From assembly GCA_934754975.1 (NCBI GenBank), contig CAKVKI010000043.1:1-13516 (forward strand): a stretch of 13,516 nucleotides of DNA. The letters run 5' to 3'. Both the position numbers and the translations under genes were made by a program. The stretch comes from an uncultured Alistipes sp. GTDB taxonomy: Bacteria > Bacteroidota > Bacteroidia > Bacteroidales > Rikenellaceae. The notes beneath the pieces are model-generated. The model was not told where the DNA came from. It made no database searches and saw only the letters and a list, made by a program, of their open reading frames with translations. Positions 1-8,817 of this stretch are shown in pieces (the stretch's first letter is position 1; the number at the start of each line of letters is the position of its first letter).

Positions 1-392
1 GCTATTCGATCGCCAATTCGCACAAGAAACTGGAGAGCATGGCCCCCTACAAGCCCGATTTCATCGTGGCCAACTGTCCCGGATGCGCGATGTTCCTCGA
101 CAAGTGGCAGTACACGATCGCCGAGATGGAGGGGACGACTTACGGCGAAAACGGGCACGGGATTCCTGTCCTGACCTACGAAGAGATGGCCGGGCTGGTA
201 CTCGGTTACGATCCCTGGGCACTGGGTATGCAGATGCACCAGGTCGATGTCGAGCCGCTGCTGGACAAGATGGGCGTCGAGTACGACCCCGCGGCCAAAT
301 ACCTCGGCCGCAACGGAAAATATATCGGTAAACCTGCGTCGGCGGTGGTGAACTGCTGCCCGACGGATACAATATACGACATCAGAGAGTAA
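1..392 (+). CDS. HdrB-like heterodisulfide reductase subunit B family protein (3' part)
   Basis: The gene runs in from the left edge; the reading frame is open from base 3 and 129 residues are visible. An internal Met codon at 39 is not a plausible start because the open frame continues upstream. The visible part matches the end of the second Cys-rich CCG domain of HdrB: an NCPGC motif (visible residues 24-28) forms the final CxxC, followed by the typical tail (PVLTYEEMAGLVLGYDP, then a LG...H.VD..PLLDK stretch). In known HdrB two CCG domains hold unusual iron-sulfur clusters that reduce a disulfide; the first domain and the start of the second lie outside the window. An extra CC pair (visible residues 118-119) sits about ten residues from the C-terminus, in a tail that methanogen HdrB, as I recall it, lacks. 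The stop codon overlaps the next start by one base (TAATG), which implies coupled translation with the HdrA-like gene. The family is fairly sure; the substrate is unknown. Confidence 0.85.
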   Translation, partial: YSIANSHKKLESMAPYKPDFIVANCPGCAMFLDKWQYTIAEMEGTTYGENGHGIPVLTYEEMAGLVLGYDPWALGMQMHQVDVEPLLDKMGVEYDPAAKYLGRNGKYIGKPASAVVNCCPTDTIYDIRE

Positions 393-1396
393 TGAAACGA
401 GTGGCAGTCATAGGCGGCGGCGTTGCGGGCATGCAAACGGCCCTGCGTCTCGCAGAACAGGGGATCGAACCTGTAATCATCGAAAAGGAGGCCGAACTGG
501 GCGGCAAACTCCGGGGCTGGCATGTGCTGTTCCCGTCGTTTACCCCGGCGTCGGAAATACTCACCGAACTGCGCCGCCGCATCGCGGAGCGCGGTATTGA
601 AACGCTGATGCAGACCGAAGCCGCCGGGTTTACCCGCGAAGGCGTACGGCTGACCGACGGGCGTACGATCGCGTGCGACTCGGTGGTGGTGTGTTCGGGA
701 TTTACGCTCTTCGACGCGTCGATCAAGGAGGAGTACGGTTACGGCATTTACGACAACGTCTTTACGACGGTGGACGTCGAGCGCATGCTCAACGAAGGCC
801 GTGTGGCCAAGGCCGACGGCTCGCGGCCCAAACGCATCGCCTTCCTGCACTGCGTGGGTTCGCGCGACGAGAAGGTCTGCCAGCAGCACTGCTCGAAGGT
901 GTGCTGCATCACGGGTGTGAAGCAGGCGATAGAGATGAAACAGCTGTTTCCCGACGCCGACGTTTTCAATTTCTACATGGATATCCGCATGTTCGGCCCC
1001 GGTTACGAGGAGATGTACCGCGAGGCGCAGCAGAATTACAATATCCACTTCATCCGCGGTCGTATTTCGGAAGCCAGTCCGATGATCGACGGCCGCGTGC
1101 AGATCAAGGCCGAGGATACGCTGACGGGACGCCCGCTGCGGATGAGCGTCGATATGCTGATCCTGATCGTCGGCATGCGGGCCAACGACGACAATGCCGC
1201 GCTGGCCGAAGGCGCGGGCCTGAACCGGGCGCAGAGCGGCTTCATGGCGCCGCGCGATATGTTCCTGGGCAATGTGAAGAGCAATGTGGAGGGCATCTTT
1301 TATGCCGGAACCGTCACGGCTCCGAAGAATATCGGCGAATCGTTGAACGAAGCAACGGCCGCTGCCGACGCCGCGGCCCGTTATCTGGGGGCATAG
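392..1396 (+). CDS. Short HdrA/QmoA-like FAD iron-sulfur oxidoreductase
   Basis: This 334-residue flavoprotein resembles the FAD core of heterodisulfide reductase subunit A and QmoA. The N-terminus has a Rossmann dinucleotide motif (GGGVAG, residues 8-13) followed by E31 at the end of the second strand. Cysteines 154, 167, 171 and 172 lie in a CVGSRD...HCSKVCC motif; their spacing is the one I recall for the non-cubane-ligand cluster site in methanogen HdrA, and there is an additional C163. A second FAD-contact motif (FYAGT, 303-307) lies near the C-terminus. Canonical HdrA is roughly 650 residues and carries several ferredoxin-type clusters before and after this core; none are present here, so the protein is the reduced version, closer to QmoA in plan. 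It should pass electrons between FAD and the HdrC/HdrB-like partners encoded on either side. Whether it performs electron bifurcation cannot be told from this sequence, and the lack of ferredoxin domains argues against doing so alone. Confidence 0.9.
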   Translation: MKRVAVIGGGVAGMQTALRLAEQGIEPVIIEKEAELGGKLRGWHVLFPSFTPASEILTELRRRIAERGIETLMQTEAAGFTREGVRLTDGRTIACDSVVVCSGFTLFDASIKEEYGYGIYDNVFTTVDVERMLNEGRVAKADGSRPKRIAFLHCVGSRDEKVCQQHCSKVCCITGVKQAIEMKQLFPDADVFNFYMDIRMFGPGYEEMYREAQQNYNIHFIRGRISEASPMIDGRVQIKAEDTLTGRPLRMSVDMLILIVGMRANDDNAALAEGAGLNRAQSGFMAPRDMFLGNVKSNVEGIFYAGTVTAPKNIGESLNEATAAADAAARYLGA

Positions 1397-1399
1397 CGT

Positions 1400-1735
1400 A
1401 TGGCGGCGATCAATTTCGGATATACCATCTCCAAGCCGCGGGCGATCGACATCGACCGCAACAACCTGCGCAAGAGCGACGAGATACTCCACGAAATGCC
1501 GGAACTTCAGGCCTGCATCGGATGCGGGGCCTGCACGGCGGTCTGTACGGCCGGCAACCTCACGGAGTTCAATTTCCGCAAGGTACACACCCTCGTCCGC
1601 CGCGGCGAGTATCAGGGGGCTTACGAGGAGATGAACAAGTGCATGCTGTGCGGCAAATGCCGGCTGGTGTGCCCCCGCGGTATTAACACGCGCGGCGTGG
1701 TGATGCTTATCAAACGTAAACTGGGAGACTTCTGA
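1400..1735 (+). CDS. HdrC-like 4Fe-4S dicluster ferredoxin subunit
   Basis: This 111-residue protein has two classic [4Fe-4S] motifs: C39-x2-C42-x2-C45-x3-C49 and C81-x2-C84-x2-C87-x3-C91, the second followed by PRG in place of the usual P. Length and layout fit subunit C of soluble heterodisulfide reductase, which wires the flavin subunit A to the disulfide-reducing subunit B. It starts three bases after the stop of the HdrA-like gene and ends two bases before the next start, so it is part of the same operon. No membrane segment is visible, in contrast to QmoC, where an HdrC-like part is fused to a membrane domain; here the membrane domain is in the next gene. Family assignment is confident; the physiological partner chain is inferred from gene order. 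Confidence 0.9.
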   Translation: MAAINFGYTISKPRAIDIDRNNLRKSDEILHEMPELQACIGCGACTAVCTAGNLTEFNFRKVHTLVRRGEYQGAYEEMNKCMLCGKCRLVCPRGINTRGVVMLIKRKLGDF

Positions 1736-1737
1736 CG

Positions 1738-3519
1738 ATGACTTTTTTCGCACCATTCTGCATACCGTTCATGGCCGGCGCGGCTGTAATGCTCGTCGTA
1801 CTGCTCTGGAAGTGGGGTTCGTGGCTCTACCTGCTGCCCCGCGCCGACAAGAAACGGATTCTGTTCGGACTGCCGACGCGCCGCACCCTGGCGGCCGCAT
1901 GGGAGGTAATCAGCGAATCGCTGCTGCACCGCCGTATCTTCAAGGTCAATCCGCTGCTGGGTTATATGCACATGAGCCTGGCTTTCGGTTGGTTCCTGCT
2001 GATCGCCGTGGGGTGGATCGAGACCATCGCTTACCTCGGATTCCGTTATGTGCCACTGCAGGGGCATGTCTTTTTCAAATATTTCGCCACGGGGCTGGAA
2101 CATAAGCCCGTGTTCGACTTCCTGATGGACCTGCTGCTGCTGTTCGTCCTTTCGGGCGTGGCGCTGGCCTGGGGCAAGCGCGTTTACTCGCGGGCGATGG
2201 GCATGCGGCGTACGACCAAACACGTGCTGGGCGACCGTGTGGCCCTTTCGGCGTTGTGGTTCGTCTTCCCGGTGCGCCTGATCGCCGAGAGTACGACCTG
2301 CGCCCTCTACGGCGGCGGGGGATTCCTGACCGGATCGTTCGGCGCGTGGATGTCGGAACACGTCAGCACGCTCGCGCTGATGAACCTCGAAAGCGCGGCA
2401 TGGTGGGTTTACTCCGCATGTCTCGGTATTTTTTTCGTGGCGTTGCCGTTCTCGCGATATATGCATATCTTTACCGAAATTCCCCTGATCTTCCTGCGGC
2501 ATTATAAACTCCGCTCGACCGAAAAGGAGGGTTCGTTCGATCATTTTCAGGTCGAAGCCTGCTCGCGCTGCGGCATCTGCATCGACCCCTGCCAGTTGCA
2601 GAGCGTGCTGGGAATCAACGACGTGCAGTCGGTCTATTTTCTGCGTGACCGCCGTTACAGGATGTTGCGGCTGGCGACGGCCGACAACTGCCTGATGTGC
2701 GGGCGTTGTGCCGAAAAGTGCCCTGTGGGCATAGACCTCAATACGCTGCGGCTCAACTCGCGCGATACGATGCGCAATGTGCCCGACGAGAAGCGCTACG
2801 ACTATTTCAAAGGGCTGGACCGCTCTTCGGGAGAGGGCAAGGTGGGTTATTTCGCGGGATGCATGACCCTGCTTACGCCCCGTACGATGTCGGCGATGGA
2901 CAAGGTGTTCCGCGCAGCGGGTGAAGAGGTGTGGTGGGCCGACCGCGAAGGCGGCGTCTGCTGCGGCCGTCCGCTGAAGCTGGCCGGCGAGACCGATTCG
3001 GCGCACAGGATGATGCGCTACAACACTGAACTGTTCCGCAGGCACGGCATCACGACGCTCGTGACCTCGTGTCCGATCTGCCTGAAGGTTTTCCGCGAGG
3101 ATTACGAACTGGCCGGAATCGAGGTGTTGCATCATTCGGAATATATCCTGCGCCTGATCCGGGCCGGACGGCTGGATGTCGCGCACGGCTCGACGCGCTT
3201 CACCTACCACGACCCCTGCGAACTGGGGCGCGGAAGCGGTATTTACGACGAACCGCGCGCCGTGATCGAAGCGGTGGGCGAACTGCTCGAACCCGCGCAG
3301 ACGCGCGAAAATGCGCCATGCTGCGGCTCCTCGGTCGCCAATACGGCTATTTCCGACGGCCAGCAGGTGCGCCTTGCGCAGGCGGTCGCCGAAGAGCTGG
3401 AAGCCACGGGCGCCGAGGTGATCGTGACGGCCTGCCCGCTCTGCAAGAAGGCCATCGGCCGCGGCACGAAGGGCGAGGTGCGCGATTTGGCGGAGATCGT
3501 CGCCGCCGGGCTGAAATAA
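1738..3519 (+). CDS. HdrE-HdrD (DsrMK-like) fusion: membrane cytochrome-like domain, ferredoxin and double CCG domain
   Basis: This 593-residue protein has four parts. Residues about 10-250 form roughly five hydrophobic segments (near 10-32, 75-100, 125-145, 168-190 and 222-245) with several His (78, 110, 122, 208, 243) that could ligate b-type haem, as in HdrE, DsrM and NarI-like subunits. Residues 275-331 hold two [4Fe-4S] sites (C275/278/281/285 and C318/321/324/328). Residues 370-450 form a complete CCG motif, C375-x32-C408-C409-x35-C445-x2-C448. Residues 490-570 form a second, C494-x33-C528-C529-x36-C566-x2-C569. CCG motifs of this spacing hold the catalytic clusters of HdrB/HdrD. In methanogens and sulfate reducers the membrane and CCG parts are usually separate proteins (HdrE+HdrD, DsrM+DsrK); here they are one chain. 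I infer that it connects the quinone pool to the soluble HdrB/A/C-like partners. GlpC- or lactate-utilisation-type proteins also carry CCG domains but not this membrane domain. Confidence 0.88.
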   Translation: MTFFAPFCIPFMAGAAVMLVVLLWKWGSWLYLLPRADKKRILFGLPTRRTLAAAWEVISESLLHRRIFKVNPLLGYMHMSLAFGWFLLIAVGWIETIAYLGFRYVPLQGHVFFKYFATGLEHKPVFDFLMDLLLLFVLSGVALAWGKRVYSRAMGMRRTTKHVLGDRVALSALWFVFPVRLIAESTTCALYGGGGFLTGSFGAWMSEHVSTLALMNLESAAWWVYSACLGIFFVALPFSRYMHIFTEIPLIFLRHYKLRSTEKEGSFDHFQVEACSRCGICIDPCQLQSVLGINDVQSVYFLRDRRYRMLRLATADNCLMCGRCAEKCPVGIDLNTLRLNSRDTMRNVPDEKRYDYFKGLDRSSGEGKVGYFAGCMTLLTPRTMSAMDKVFRAAGEEVWWADREGGVCCGRPLKLAGETDSAHRMMRYNTELFRRHGITTLVTSCPICLKVFREDYELAGIEVLHHSEYILRLIRAGRLDVAHGSTRFTYHDPCELGRGSGIYDEPRAVIEAVGELLEPAQTRENAPCCGSSVANTAISDGQQVRLAQAVAEELEATGAEVIVTACPLCKKAIGRGTKGEVRDLAEIVAAGLK

Positions 3520-6714: not shown

Positions 6715-8817
6715 TTATTGCTGTTTCTTGTAGGCTTCGGCGCCGCTGCGGAGAAATTGCACGAAGTTCTCGACGTTGAGGTCGTATCCGCGCGGCGGCA
6801 CGAGCGTTTTCCCGTCGCGGCCCTGCAGTACGTAATAGGGCTGGGCGTTGACGCCGTAGGTCTTCAGTGCATAGTAGGAGTTGATCTTGCCGAGACTTTT
6901 GAGTACTTTGCCCGAATCGGTGGTCACCCATTCGTTTTCGGGCAGGACTTTCTTGTCGTCGGAGTAGAGCGCCACGATCACGTAATCCCGGCGCAGGATA
7001 TCCAGCACCTGCGGATCGGACCATACGCGGGCTTCCATTTCGCGGCAGTTTACGCAGCCGTGGCCCGTGAAGTCGATGAACAGCGGCTTATTGACTTTCG
7101 CGGCGTATGCTTCGGCTTCCTGCAGGTCGAAGAACCCTTCGAGACCGTGCGGCAGGTGCAGGAAGTCGCTGTGCTTGGGTTTTTTGCCGTCCACGGTCAG
7201 CAGCATGCCCGATTCGCCGGATGCCGCGGCGGGTCCGCCCTGTCCGATGACGAAGTCCTGCGTATGCAGGGGCGGCAGGTAGCCCGAGAGTCCCTTGAGG
7301 GGCGCTCCCCACATGCCGGGAATCAGGTAAACGACGAACGAGAAGGTGATGATCGCCAGTGCCAGCCGTCCTACGCCTAGGTAGGGCATGTCGCTGTCGT
7401 GCGCGAATTTGATTTTTCCGAGCAGGTAAAGTCCCAGCAGCGAGAAGGTCACGATCCATACGGCCAGGTAGATTTCGCGGTCGAGCAGCCCCCAGTGATA
7501 GGTCTGGTCGGCGACCGAAAGGAACTTCATGCCCAGGGCGACTTCGATGAAGCCCAGCACAACTTTTACCGAGTTGAGCCAGCCGCCGCTCTTGGGCAGT
7601 TTCTTGAGCATCGAGGGGAAGAAGGCGAAGATCGTAAACGGCAGGGCGAATGCCACCGAGAATGCGAGCATCGTGACGATCGGACTCCAGAATTCGCCCG
7701 AAGTCGATTTGATGAGTACCGAGCCGACGATCGGTCCCGTGCAGGAGAACGACACCAGCACGAGCGTCAGAGCCATGAAGAAGATGCCCGCCAAACCTTT
7801 CGAATCGGCTTTTGCGTCGGTTTTGTTCACCATCCACGACGGCATCGTGATCTCGAAAGCCCCGAAGAACGAAGCGGCGAAGACCATGAACACCAAGAAG
7901 AAGAGAATGTTCGGGAGCCAGTGCGTCGCCAGCCAGTTGAAGATGTCGGCCGTCACGGTGTCGCCGCCCAGGACGCGCGTAATGATGATGATGGCCGCGA
8001 TCGGGAGCGTGTAGAGCGCGATGATGAAGAATCCGTACATGGCAGCGCGGAAGCGGCCGCGCGCGGGACTTCCTTCGCCTTTCATGAAGAACGAAACGGT
8101 CATCGGGACCATCGGGAAGACGCAGGGGGTCAGCAGGGCTGCAAAGCCCCAGAGGATAGCTTCGATAATCAGCGCCCACAGCGTACCGCCTCCTGCGGCG
8201 TCTTTTTGTGCCGGGACGATCTCTGCGGCAGGTGTCGCGGTCGTGTCGGAGGCTGTATCTGCGGCGGCTTCGGCCGGGGTGTCTTTGGCGGGAGTGTCTC
8301 CGGCAGAAACGTTTTTATTCGGGGTGACGGCCGCAGTGCTGCTAGCCGCAGCCGAGCCGGGCAGTGCAGTCAGCTCGACCGTCAGTTCCGTGTCGTCGGG
8401 GGGCATGCAACTCACCTCGTCGCAGATCATCCACTCTATTGAGGCCTTGACGGTCGCTTGGGGGACGGAGAGTTTTACCTGCTGGGCGAAGCGGGCTTTG
8501 CCGGCGAAAGTGCCGATCTCCATCTCGAATGTCTTGTCGTAATGGCGTTCCGGCGTCGAAAGCTGTTCCACGCCGCCTTCGAGCGTTACGCCGTCGCCCG
8601 GCGTAAAGGCGATGGCCGTGGCATTGGGGCCGCCTTCGTAGGGGCCCATGTCGTACATATGGTAAGGTGCGGGAATCGACGCTTCGAGAATGATTCGGTA
8701 GACATCGCCTTTAAGATGCTCTACGGAGCTTTTCCAGCTGACATTCTGGGCCGTGGCCGCCGTAAGGGCGAACAGCGCGGCGAATAACAGAAAGAGGGTG
8801 CGAGACAGTTTGTACAT
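6715..8817 (-). CDS. dsbD: DsbD-family thiol:disulfide interchange protein (protein-disulfide reductase)
   Basis: This 700-residue protein carries reducing power from cytoplasmic thioredoxin across the inner membrane to periplasmic partners. A signal peptide (1-23, cleavage probably after ATA) is followed by a DsbD-alpha-like domain with C132 and C137 (ICDEVSC). A flexible Ala/Thr/Pro/Asp linker covers about 155-210. The membrane core has about eight helices (about 213-500) with the two active cysteines C232 (TPCVFPMVPM) and C359 (SFSCTGP). A C-terminal thioredoxin-like domain has the C588-V-N-C591 active site and the cis-Pro region at P660. All six redox cysteines expected for DsbD are present, and length is a little above the roughly 570 residues of the E. 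coli protein because of the linker and a loop at about 505-560. In Bacteroidota such proteins support cytochrome c maturation and periplasmic disulfide isomerisation. It is a single gene, divergent from the glycosyltransferase. Confidence 0.93.
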   Translation of the reverse strand: MYKLSRTLFLLFAALFALTAATAQNVSWKSSVEHLKGDVYRIILEASIPAPYHMYDMGPYEGGPNATAIAFTPGDGVTLEGGVEQLSTPERHYDKTFEMEIGTFAGKARFAQQVKLSVPQATVKASIEWMICDEVSCMPPDDTELTVELTALPGSAAASSTAAVTPNKNVSAGDTPAKDTPAEAAADTASDTTATPAAEIVPAQKDAAGGGTLWALIIEAILWGFAALLTPCVFPMVPMTVSFFMKGEGSPARGRFRAAMYGFFIIALYTLPIAAIIIITRVLGGDTVTADIFNWLATHWLPNILFFLVFMVFAASFFGAFEITMPSWMVNKTDAKADSKGLAGIFFMALTLVLVSFSCTGPIVGSVLIKSTSGEFWSPIVTMLAFSVAFALPFTIFAFFPSMLKKLPKSGGWLNSVKVVLGFIEVALGMKFLSVADQTYHWGLLDREIYLAVWIVTFSLLGLYLLGKIKFAHDSDMPYLGVGRLALAIITFSFVVYLIPGMWGAPLKGLSGYLPPLHTQDFVIGQGGPAAASGESGMLLTVDGKKPKHSDFLHLPHGLEGFFDLQEAEAYAAKVNKPLFIDFTGHGCVNCREMEARVWSDPQVLDILRRDYVIVALYSDDKKVLPENEWVTTDSGKVLKSLGKINSYYALKTYGVNAQPYYVLQGRDGKTLVPPRGYDLNVENFVQFLRSGAEAYKKQQ

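Follow-up and report, generated by a model that had tools for sequence, protein, structure and literature searches.

A group of genes at the start of a 13,516-nucleotide stretch of DNA from an uncultured Alistipes sp. (contig CAKVKI010000043.1; the whole stretch is called the window below) is confirmed here as part of a real operon, hdrC1-hdrB1-hdrA-hdrC2-hdrED, which is heterodisulfide reductase (Hdr)-like and into whose second gene the window start falls. The operon is a conserved, membrane-anchored relative of sHdr, the sulfur-oxidising Hdr-like complex; its locus has no gene for the lipoate carrier LbpA, and its D module resembles that of Hdr. We tentatively propose, at somewhat less than even confidence, that its products form a membrane-anchored, five-subunit thiol/persulfide:menaquinone oxidoreductase that would work independently of LbpA. 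The following features are found in the window:

1-392, + strand: 3' end of hdrB1, an open frame from the window edge (HdrB match, E = 1e-11), with the full-length gene in the related locus L001
392-1396, + strand: hdrA, short form of 334 amino acids, with a flavin adenine dinucleotide (FAD) domain and a C-x12-C-x3-CC motif; full-length match to sHdrA 6tjr
1400-1735, + strand: hdrC2, 111 amino acids, two [4Fe-4S] motifs
1738-3519, + strand: hdrED fusion, 593 amino acids, from CCG and 4Fe-4S domain matches and predicted fold
1738-2502, + strand: membrane part of HdrED (HdrE/NarI-like, residues 1-255), five hydrophobic stretches, with His64, His78 and His243 invariant
2539-2736, + strand: two [4Fe-4S] motifs of HdrED (residues 268-333), from domain match and alignment
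2833-3135, + strand: first CCG site of the D module (Cys375, 408, 409, 445, 448; Ile447)
3196-3462, + strand: second CCG site of the D module (Cys494, 528, 529, 566, 569)

An earlier reading of the window, made from the sequence only, had described four HdrB-, HdrA-, HdrC- and HdrE/D-like genes that overlap or lie two to three bases apart, and both points agree with the frames listed above: the hdrB1 stop and the hdrA start share one base (-1), while the gaps between hdrA and hdrC2 and between hdrC2 and hdrED are 3 and 2 bases. The gene order B-A-C-ED given in that reading is correct in that those genes abut, but the set is incomplete, as the window edge cuts an operon whose full order is C1-B1-A-C2-ED. 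Extension to the left through relatives recovered hdrC1 and most of hdrB1 beyond the window, giving protein lengths of 232 (C1), 362 (B1), 334 (A), 111 (C2) and 593 (ED) amino acids; the window itself holds the last 129 of the ~362 residues of HdrB1, comprising the last two cysteines of its second CCG site and the C-terminal tail. All five genes occur in the same order in 71 of 80 Alistipes/Rikenellaceae loci, and in the remaining nine the contig ends before C1 is reached. The window genes match the HdrA2 (4e-75), HdrC (3e-10) and, for the fragment, HdrB (1e-11) families at values that all lie under the NCBIfam curated full-length cut-offs, and the CCG (E 6e-25) and 4Fe-4S domains of HdrED are found above cut-off. 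These family matches together with the conservation across 80 loci exclude chance. Parts, order, ligand conservation and predicted fold are obtained directly from the sequences, including both CxxCxxCxxxC motifs of HdrC2, which are intact in the translation.

The nearest named locus belongs to Alistipes sp. AH.B8_2 (97% identity in HdrED), in line with the Bacteroidota host deduced previously. Genome-level counts here and below concern the genomes of relatives, and those for carriers refer to 28 genomes, of which eight belong to Alistipes/Rikenellaceae-type loci and 20 do not. Of 150 family genomes, 99 contain HdrB1 (one as two fragments); the figure is 92 of 295 for the order (two as fragments) and three of 345 for a phylum draw, the centre genome G001 among the three; 12 of the 92 order carriers have two B1 matches. 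Twenty wider Bacteroidales regions were picked from the B1 places of the order genomes. Seventeen of them hold all five hdr genes, including one with the order C1-C2-ED-B1-A (L138), and the other three hold a C1-B1 pair alone, in genomes that also carry a copy with more of the set. Across 16 full regions (L119 excluded), identity to the L001 proteins is 64-72% for B1 and 38-48% for A, and identity to the window's ED is 36-48%; therefore, B1 is the most constrained subunit. Some two thirds of the family genomes sampled, and a third of those from the order, thus carry HdrB1, yet we found no description of the operon or of a function for it in Bacteroidales in the open-licence literature; the sequence-only reading likewise named no described function. 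Subscription papers lay mostly outside this search, so a prior description is possible.

One indication of sulfur chemistry comes from the D module of HdrED. The predicted structure of this fusion (predicted local distance difference test score, pLDDT, 88.8) matches EtfD over 557 of 593 residues, and its membrane part matches NarI at a middling score. A sequence search against solved structures returned EtfD and two weak NuoI-type chains, and a profile search returned EtfD alone; many low-scoring racemase rows in the Foldseek lists were set aside as common folds. HdrED and EtfD/EMO have in common a five-helix membrane part, two ferredoxin clusters, two CCG domains and the overall fold, and it is this structural likeness that suggests the quinone link claimed earlier. 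HdrED differs from EtfD, however, in that both sites of its D module are complete: the ten CCG cysteines are kept in 26 of 26 aligned rows, as are the eight ferredoxin cysteines, so the intact cysteine motifs previously noted for HdrED hold across relatives. The portion of PMC13083937 consulted describes EtfD as missing an extra cysteine at the first CCG site, with His583 serving as cluster ligand. HdrED has Cys409, which EtfD lacks, and Ile447 where EtfD has its histidine ligand, again in 26 of 26 rows. The partners also differ, since the operon of HdrED supplies HdrA, HdrB and HdrC rather than electron-transfer flavoprotein (ETF).

HdrB1 has only one complete site. Its structure model (pLDDT 80.1) matches HdrB, and alignment with HdrB reveals a degenerate first CCG site (Cys25, Cys59, Cys97, Ser100) and a complete second one (Cys178, 218, 219, 258, 261), and none of the residues of either site, Ser100 included, varies in the 26 rows aligned, which include one from a cyanobacterium. 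Ser100 takes the place of Cys81 of HdrB and Cys261 that of Cys234, which are the bridging cysteines of Hdr according to an excerpt of PMC13083937; B1 therefore retains one of the two. In a midpoint-rooted tree of 28 rows with several long branches, B1, its cyanobacterial counterpart and sHdrB1 form one clade (support 100/98) that excludes HdrB, cyanobacterial B2 and the D modules.

The A subunit gives a different placement. The short HdrA has an FAD domain and no ferredoxin domains, its C-x12-C-x3-CC motif is present in 24 of 24 Bacteroidales rows, and the L001 protein is 34% identical to sHdrA 6tjr. In a tree of 64 rows, rooted on one long-branched HdrA and with picked references (9 of 120 sHdrA hits and 28 of 120 hits of the cyanobacterial A, only part of them named), 11 rows of sHdrA group together (97/95) and the 24 Bacteroidales rows fall in a separate clade (99/98) with cyanobacterial-type and other rows. 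The base of the latter clade is not resolved and the Bacteroidales are not monophyletic within it. A thus lies outside the sHdrA clade; B1 shares its clade with sHdrB1.

These trees bear on the relation to sHdr, whose published gene set is hdrC1B1A-hyp-hdrC2B2, with lbpA always associated in the extracts seen of PMC6067878 (also PMC10332631). The Alistipes set resembles sHdr in its C1-B1-A core, its short HdrA, its separate C2 and the degenerate first site of B1, which also ends in CxTS in sHdrB1 of two sHdr-type loci (L145, L146) when read by eye. It differs in the clade of its A, in the missing hyp gene between A and C2 (a 3-base gap in the window) and in the membrane E-D fusion that replaces B2. 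Nor does a lipoate carrier appear nearby: one strong match to the GcvH family (E<=1.3e-37) is present in 26 of 28 carriers, but in none of the 28 does such a match share a contig with the operon at a distance below 20 kb, the nearest being 24 kb away (G006), and two control genomes of the phylum draw with sHdr-type loci (G307, G389) have a GcvH-like gene at the hdr locus. Because of the gene-order, tree and GcvH results, we conclude that the Alistipes set has the sHdr core but lacks the LbpA, clade and C2B2 features of sHdr; LbpA was rejected as an operon partner.

The two sHdr-type loci of the phylum draw, L145 and L146, combine C1, B1 and A with a CCG protein, EtfB, EtfA and an ED-like protein, and the GcvH-like gene of each is a candidate for LbpA. 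GcvH-like genes were also seen elsewhere. Genome G102 has two further, weaker GcvH-like matches (C1:209231-212507), with E values of 6e-18 and 6e-23; they lie in longer frames, on a contig other than that of its Hdr operon. On a plasmid of Acidithiobacillus ferrooxidans (L140:787-4490), an HdrB-like gene has genes of the hemerythrin-domain and GcvH-like types nearby.

A parallel outside Bacteroidales was found on a plasmid of Picosynechococcus sp. PCC 7003 (L139:6119-11859), where C1-B1-A-C2-B2 is followed by an FAD protein in a set with no annotated function. Gene order is shared, the A, C1 and B1 proteins are 48%, 47% and 42% identical to those of L001, and the cyanobacterial A falls in the same large clade as the Bacteroidales A. 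The named hits of this A among the best 120 are mostly cyanobacterial, with one labelled Altiarchaeales and one Actinomycetota. Where Alistipes has ED, the cyanobacterium has a soluble B2 and a flavoprotein for which type III sulfide:quinone reductase (SQR) is the top NCBIfam family (E 1.5e-23, below the curated cut-off). From this single cyanobacterial operon, we infer that both lineages may have fixed a quinone-type module onto the same C1-B1-A core. For a cyanobacterium, PMC8002359 mentions the genes hdrA2, hdrB2 and hdrC2 and offers bifurcation as a guess.

Other characterised systems are more distant. The A, B, C and D/E modules are homologous to those of methanogen HdrABC and HdrDE, and the noncubane-type motifs of D are complete, but A here has 334 amino acids compared with chains of 643-671 that contain ferredoxin domains, and a single operon of a bacterial host combines a C1-B1 arm with E-D. 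To our knowledge, coenzymes M and B are not expected in Alistipes-type hosts. The QmoABC complex of sulfate reducers combines an HdrA-like flavoprotein with an HdrC/HdrE-type quinone module, as does the Alistipes set, which differs in having one HdrA, a separate C2 and CCG modules. DsrA was detected in none of the 28 carriers and AprA in none over cut-off, with seven weak matches beneath it, which bears out the earlier expectation that the host group lacks sulfate reduction.

Based on these comparisons, we propose a model in which the complex would link the menaquinone pool to the chemistry of a sulfur compound, which may be a thiol, disulfide or persulfide and either a small molecule or protein-bound; its cluster types, heme, quinone, substrate, direction and two-arm wiring are inferred. 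HdrA, through its FAD, would be the hub between C1-B1 and C2-D-E. One arm would lead from HdrA via the two [4Fe-4S] clusters of C1 to B1 and its single complete CCG site, and the other via the two [4Fe-4S] clusters of C2 to the D module, whose two CCG sites of the HdrB type are both complete. Electrons would pass from the D module through the ferredoxin clusters to heme b of E and on to quinone. Thiol/disulfide couples lie mostly below menaquinone in potential, and flow from thiol or persulfide to menaquinone should thus be the easier direction. In the likely net reaction, a thiol or persulfide would be oxidised and its electrons delivered to menaquinone and then to a fumarate-reductase-type acceptor.

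Sulfur chemistry is favoured by the D-module residues and by the SQR-like partner in the cyanobacterium, but several observations weigh against the proposed oxidoreductase. No LbpA-like gene lies at the Alistipes-type hdr locus, although the nearest characterised relative, sHdr, needs LbpA. The quinone claim is weakened for part of the genus: MenD is over cut-off in eight of 28 carriers and MqnC exceeds 400 bits in 13 further ones (six over cut-off), bringing carriers with either to 21, and strong MenD and MqnC are both missing in the other seven. Five of these are Alistipes, the genomes of L002, L005, L013, L018 and L022 (G001, G003-G006); in G002, the genome nearest the window, MqnC is present. 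A UbiA-family gene is found in 27 of 28 carriers, including all seven without strong MenD or MqnC, and its retention there suggests that an imported menaquinone precursor is possibly used. The operon has no constant substrate gene as its neighbour, with cysM within 600 bases downstream in only five of 65 loci (those with enough sequence, at least 1200 bases downstream for this count). Finally, the shared neighbours of the second, stand-alone C1-B1 pairs (L128, L135, L137) do not favour sulfur. In L128 the pair is directly followed by methionine gamma-lyase-, CoA-disulfide-reductase- and ApbC-type genes, which speak for sulfur, yet what all three pairs have in common are DUF134 and NifX-type genes, with MinD-type ferredoxin ATPases also in L128 and L137; the sulfur neighbours of L128 are therefore not the shared ones.

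The likeness of HdrED to EtfD raises an alternative, which we consider fairly unlikely, in which the complex would serve only as an electron wire: like EtfD/EMO, the ETF:menaquinone oxidoreductase, it would hand menaquinone the electrons of a flavoprotein, either ETF or a dehydrogenase that docks, with CCG sites that perform no sulfur chemistry. EtfD is the best match of ED by both sequence and fold, two sHdr-type loci of the phylum draw hold EtfBA together with an ED-like protein, and Fix or Efd ETF dehydrogenases are listed for several phyla including Bacteroidota in the part of PMC7382037 consulted. However, D has the cysteine that EtfD lacks and isoleucine for its histidine ligand throughout, and the conserved operon consists of five hdr genes with no etf gene among them. 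In G001 the ETF alpha gene is on contig C7 and the hdr operon on C9. Among 295 order genomes, 269 have ETF alpha: 86 of the 92 with B1 and 183 of the 203 without it. ETF therefore does not track the operon and was set aside as a linked partner, though with ETF alpha in most carriers it may still act as electron donor.

HdrA is the bifurcating subunit of methanogenic HdrABC, and a predicted hub with two HdrC-type arms would also suit flavin-based bifurcation or confurcation, with HdrA splitting or merging electrons between menaquinone and ferredoxin or NADH. We likewise regard this as unlikely, as the 334-residue A is without the ferredoxin domains of the 643-671-residue HdrA chains and the conserved operon holds hdr genes only; this applies to the operon proper, as no search for MvhD, Flx or hydrogenase families was made in its flanks. 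It is very improbable that the operon encodes the true sHdr pathway, in which protein-bound sulfane sulfur would be converted to sulfite with GcvH or another carrier in place of LbpA. The common C1-B1-A core, the clade that B1 shares with sHdrB1 and the GcvH-family gene somewhere in most carriers fit such a pathway, but A lies outside the sHdrA clade and the locus lacks the LbpA-like gene present at those of the two control genomes.

The wider surroundings of the operon vary. Upstream, folA lies within 600 bases in 29 of the 65 Alistipes/Rikenellaceae loci whose sequence reaches far enough. No other gene cluster recurs in more than four of 26 loci, and a fixed wider neighbourhood was rejected, as was a downstream cysteine synthase as part of the unit; it should be noted that the simple gene caller used for the 26-locus count missed some hdr genes, and that the operon itself was counted from the 20 picked regions. 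In the window, positions 6715-8817 on the - strand encode a DsbD-type protein of 700 amino acids with a thioredoxin-like domain.

Returning to the thiol/persulfide:menaquinone oxidoreductase, we consider doubtful its boldest form, an undescribed, LbpA-independent sulfur respiration in gut Bacteroidales, in which thiol or persulfide oxidation would feed menaquinone and the complex would represent a sister branch of sHdr with a swapped exit module (E-D here, an SQR-like flavoprotein in cyanobacteria). The operon is common in gut Bacteroidales and readily testable, with Ser100 of B1 and Cys409 and Ile447 of ED as the residues for separating a sulfur-active Hdr from an electron wire. If the proposal is true, the sHdr core would be able to work without an adjoining lipoate carrier, and if thiols or persulfides are the substrates, the complex would connect the sulfur pools of the gut with anaerobic respiration in a way not recognised so far.

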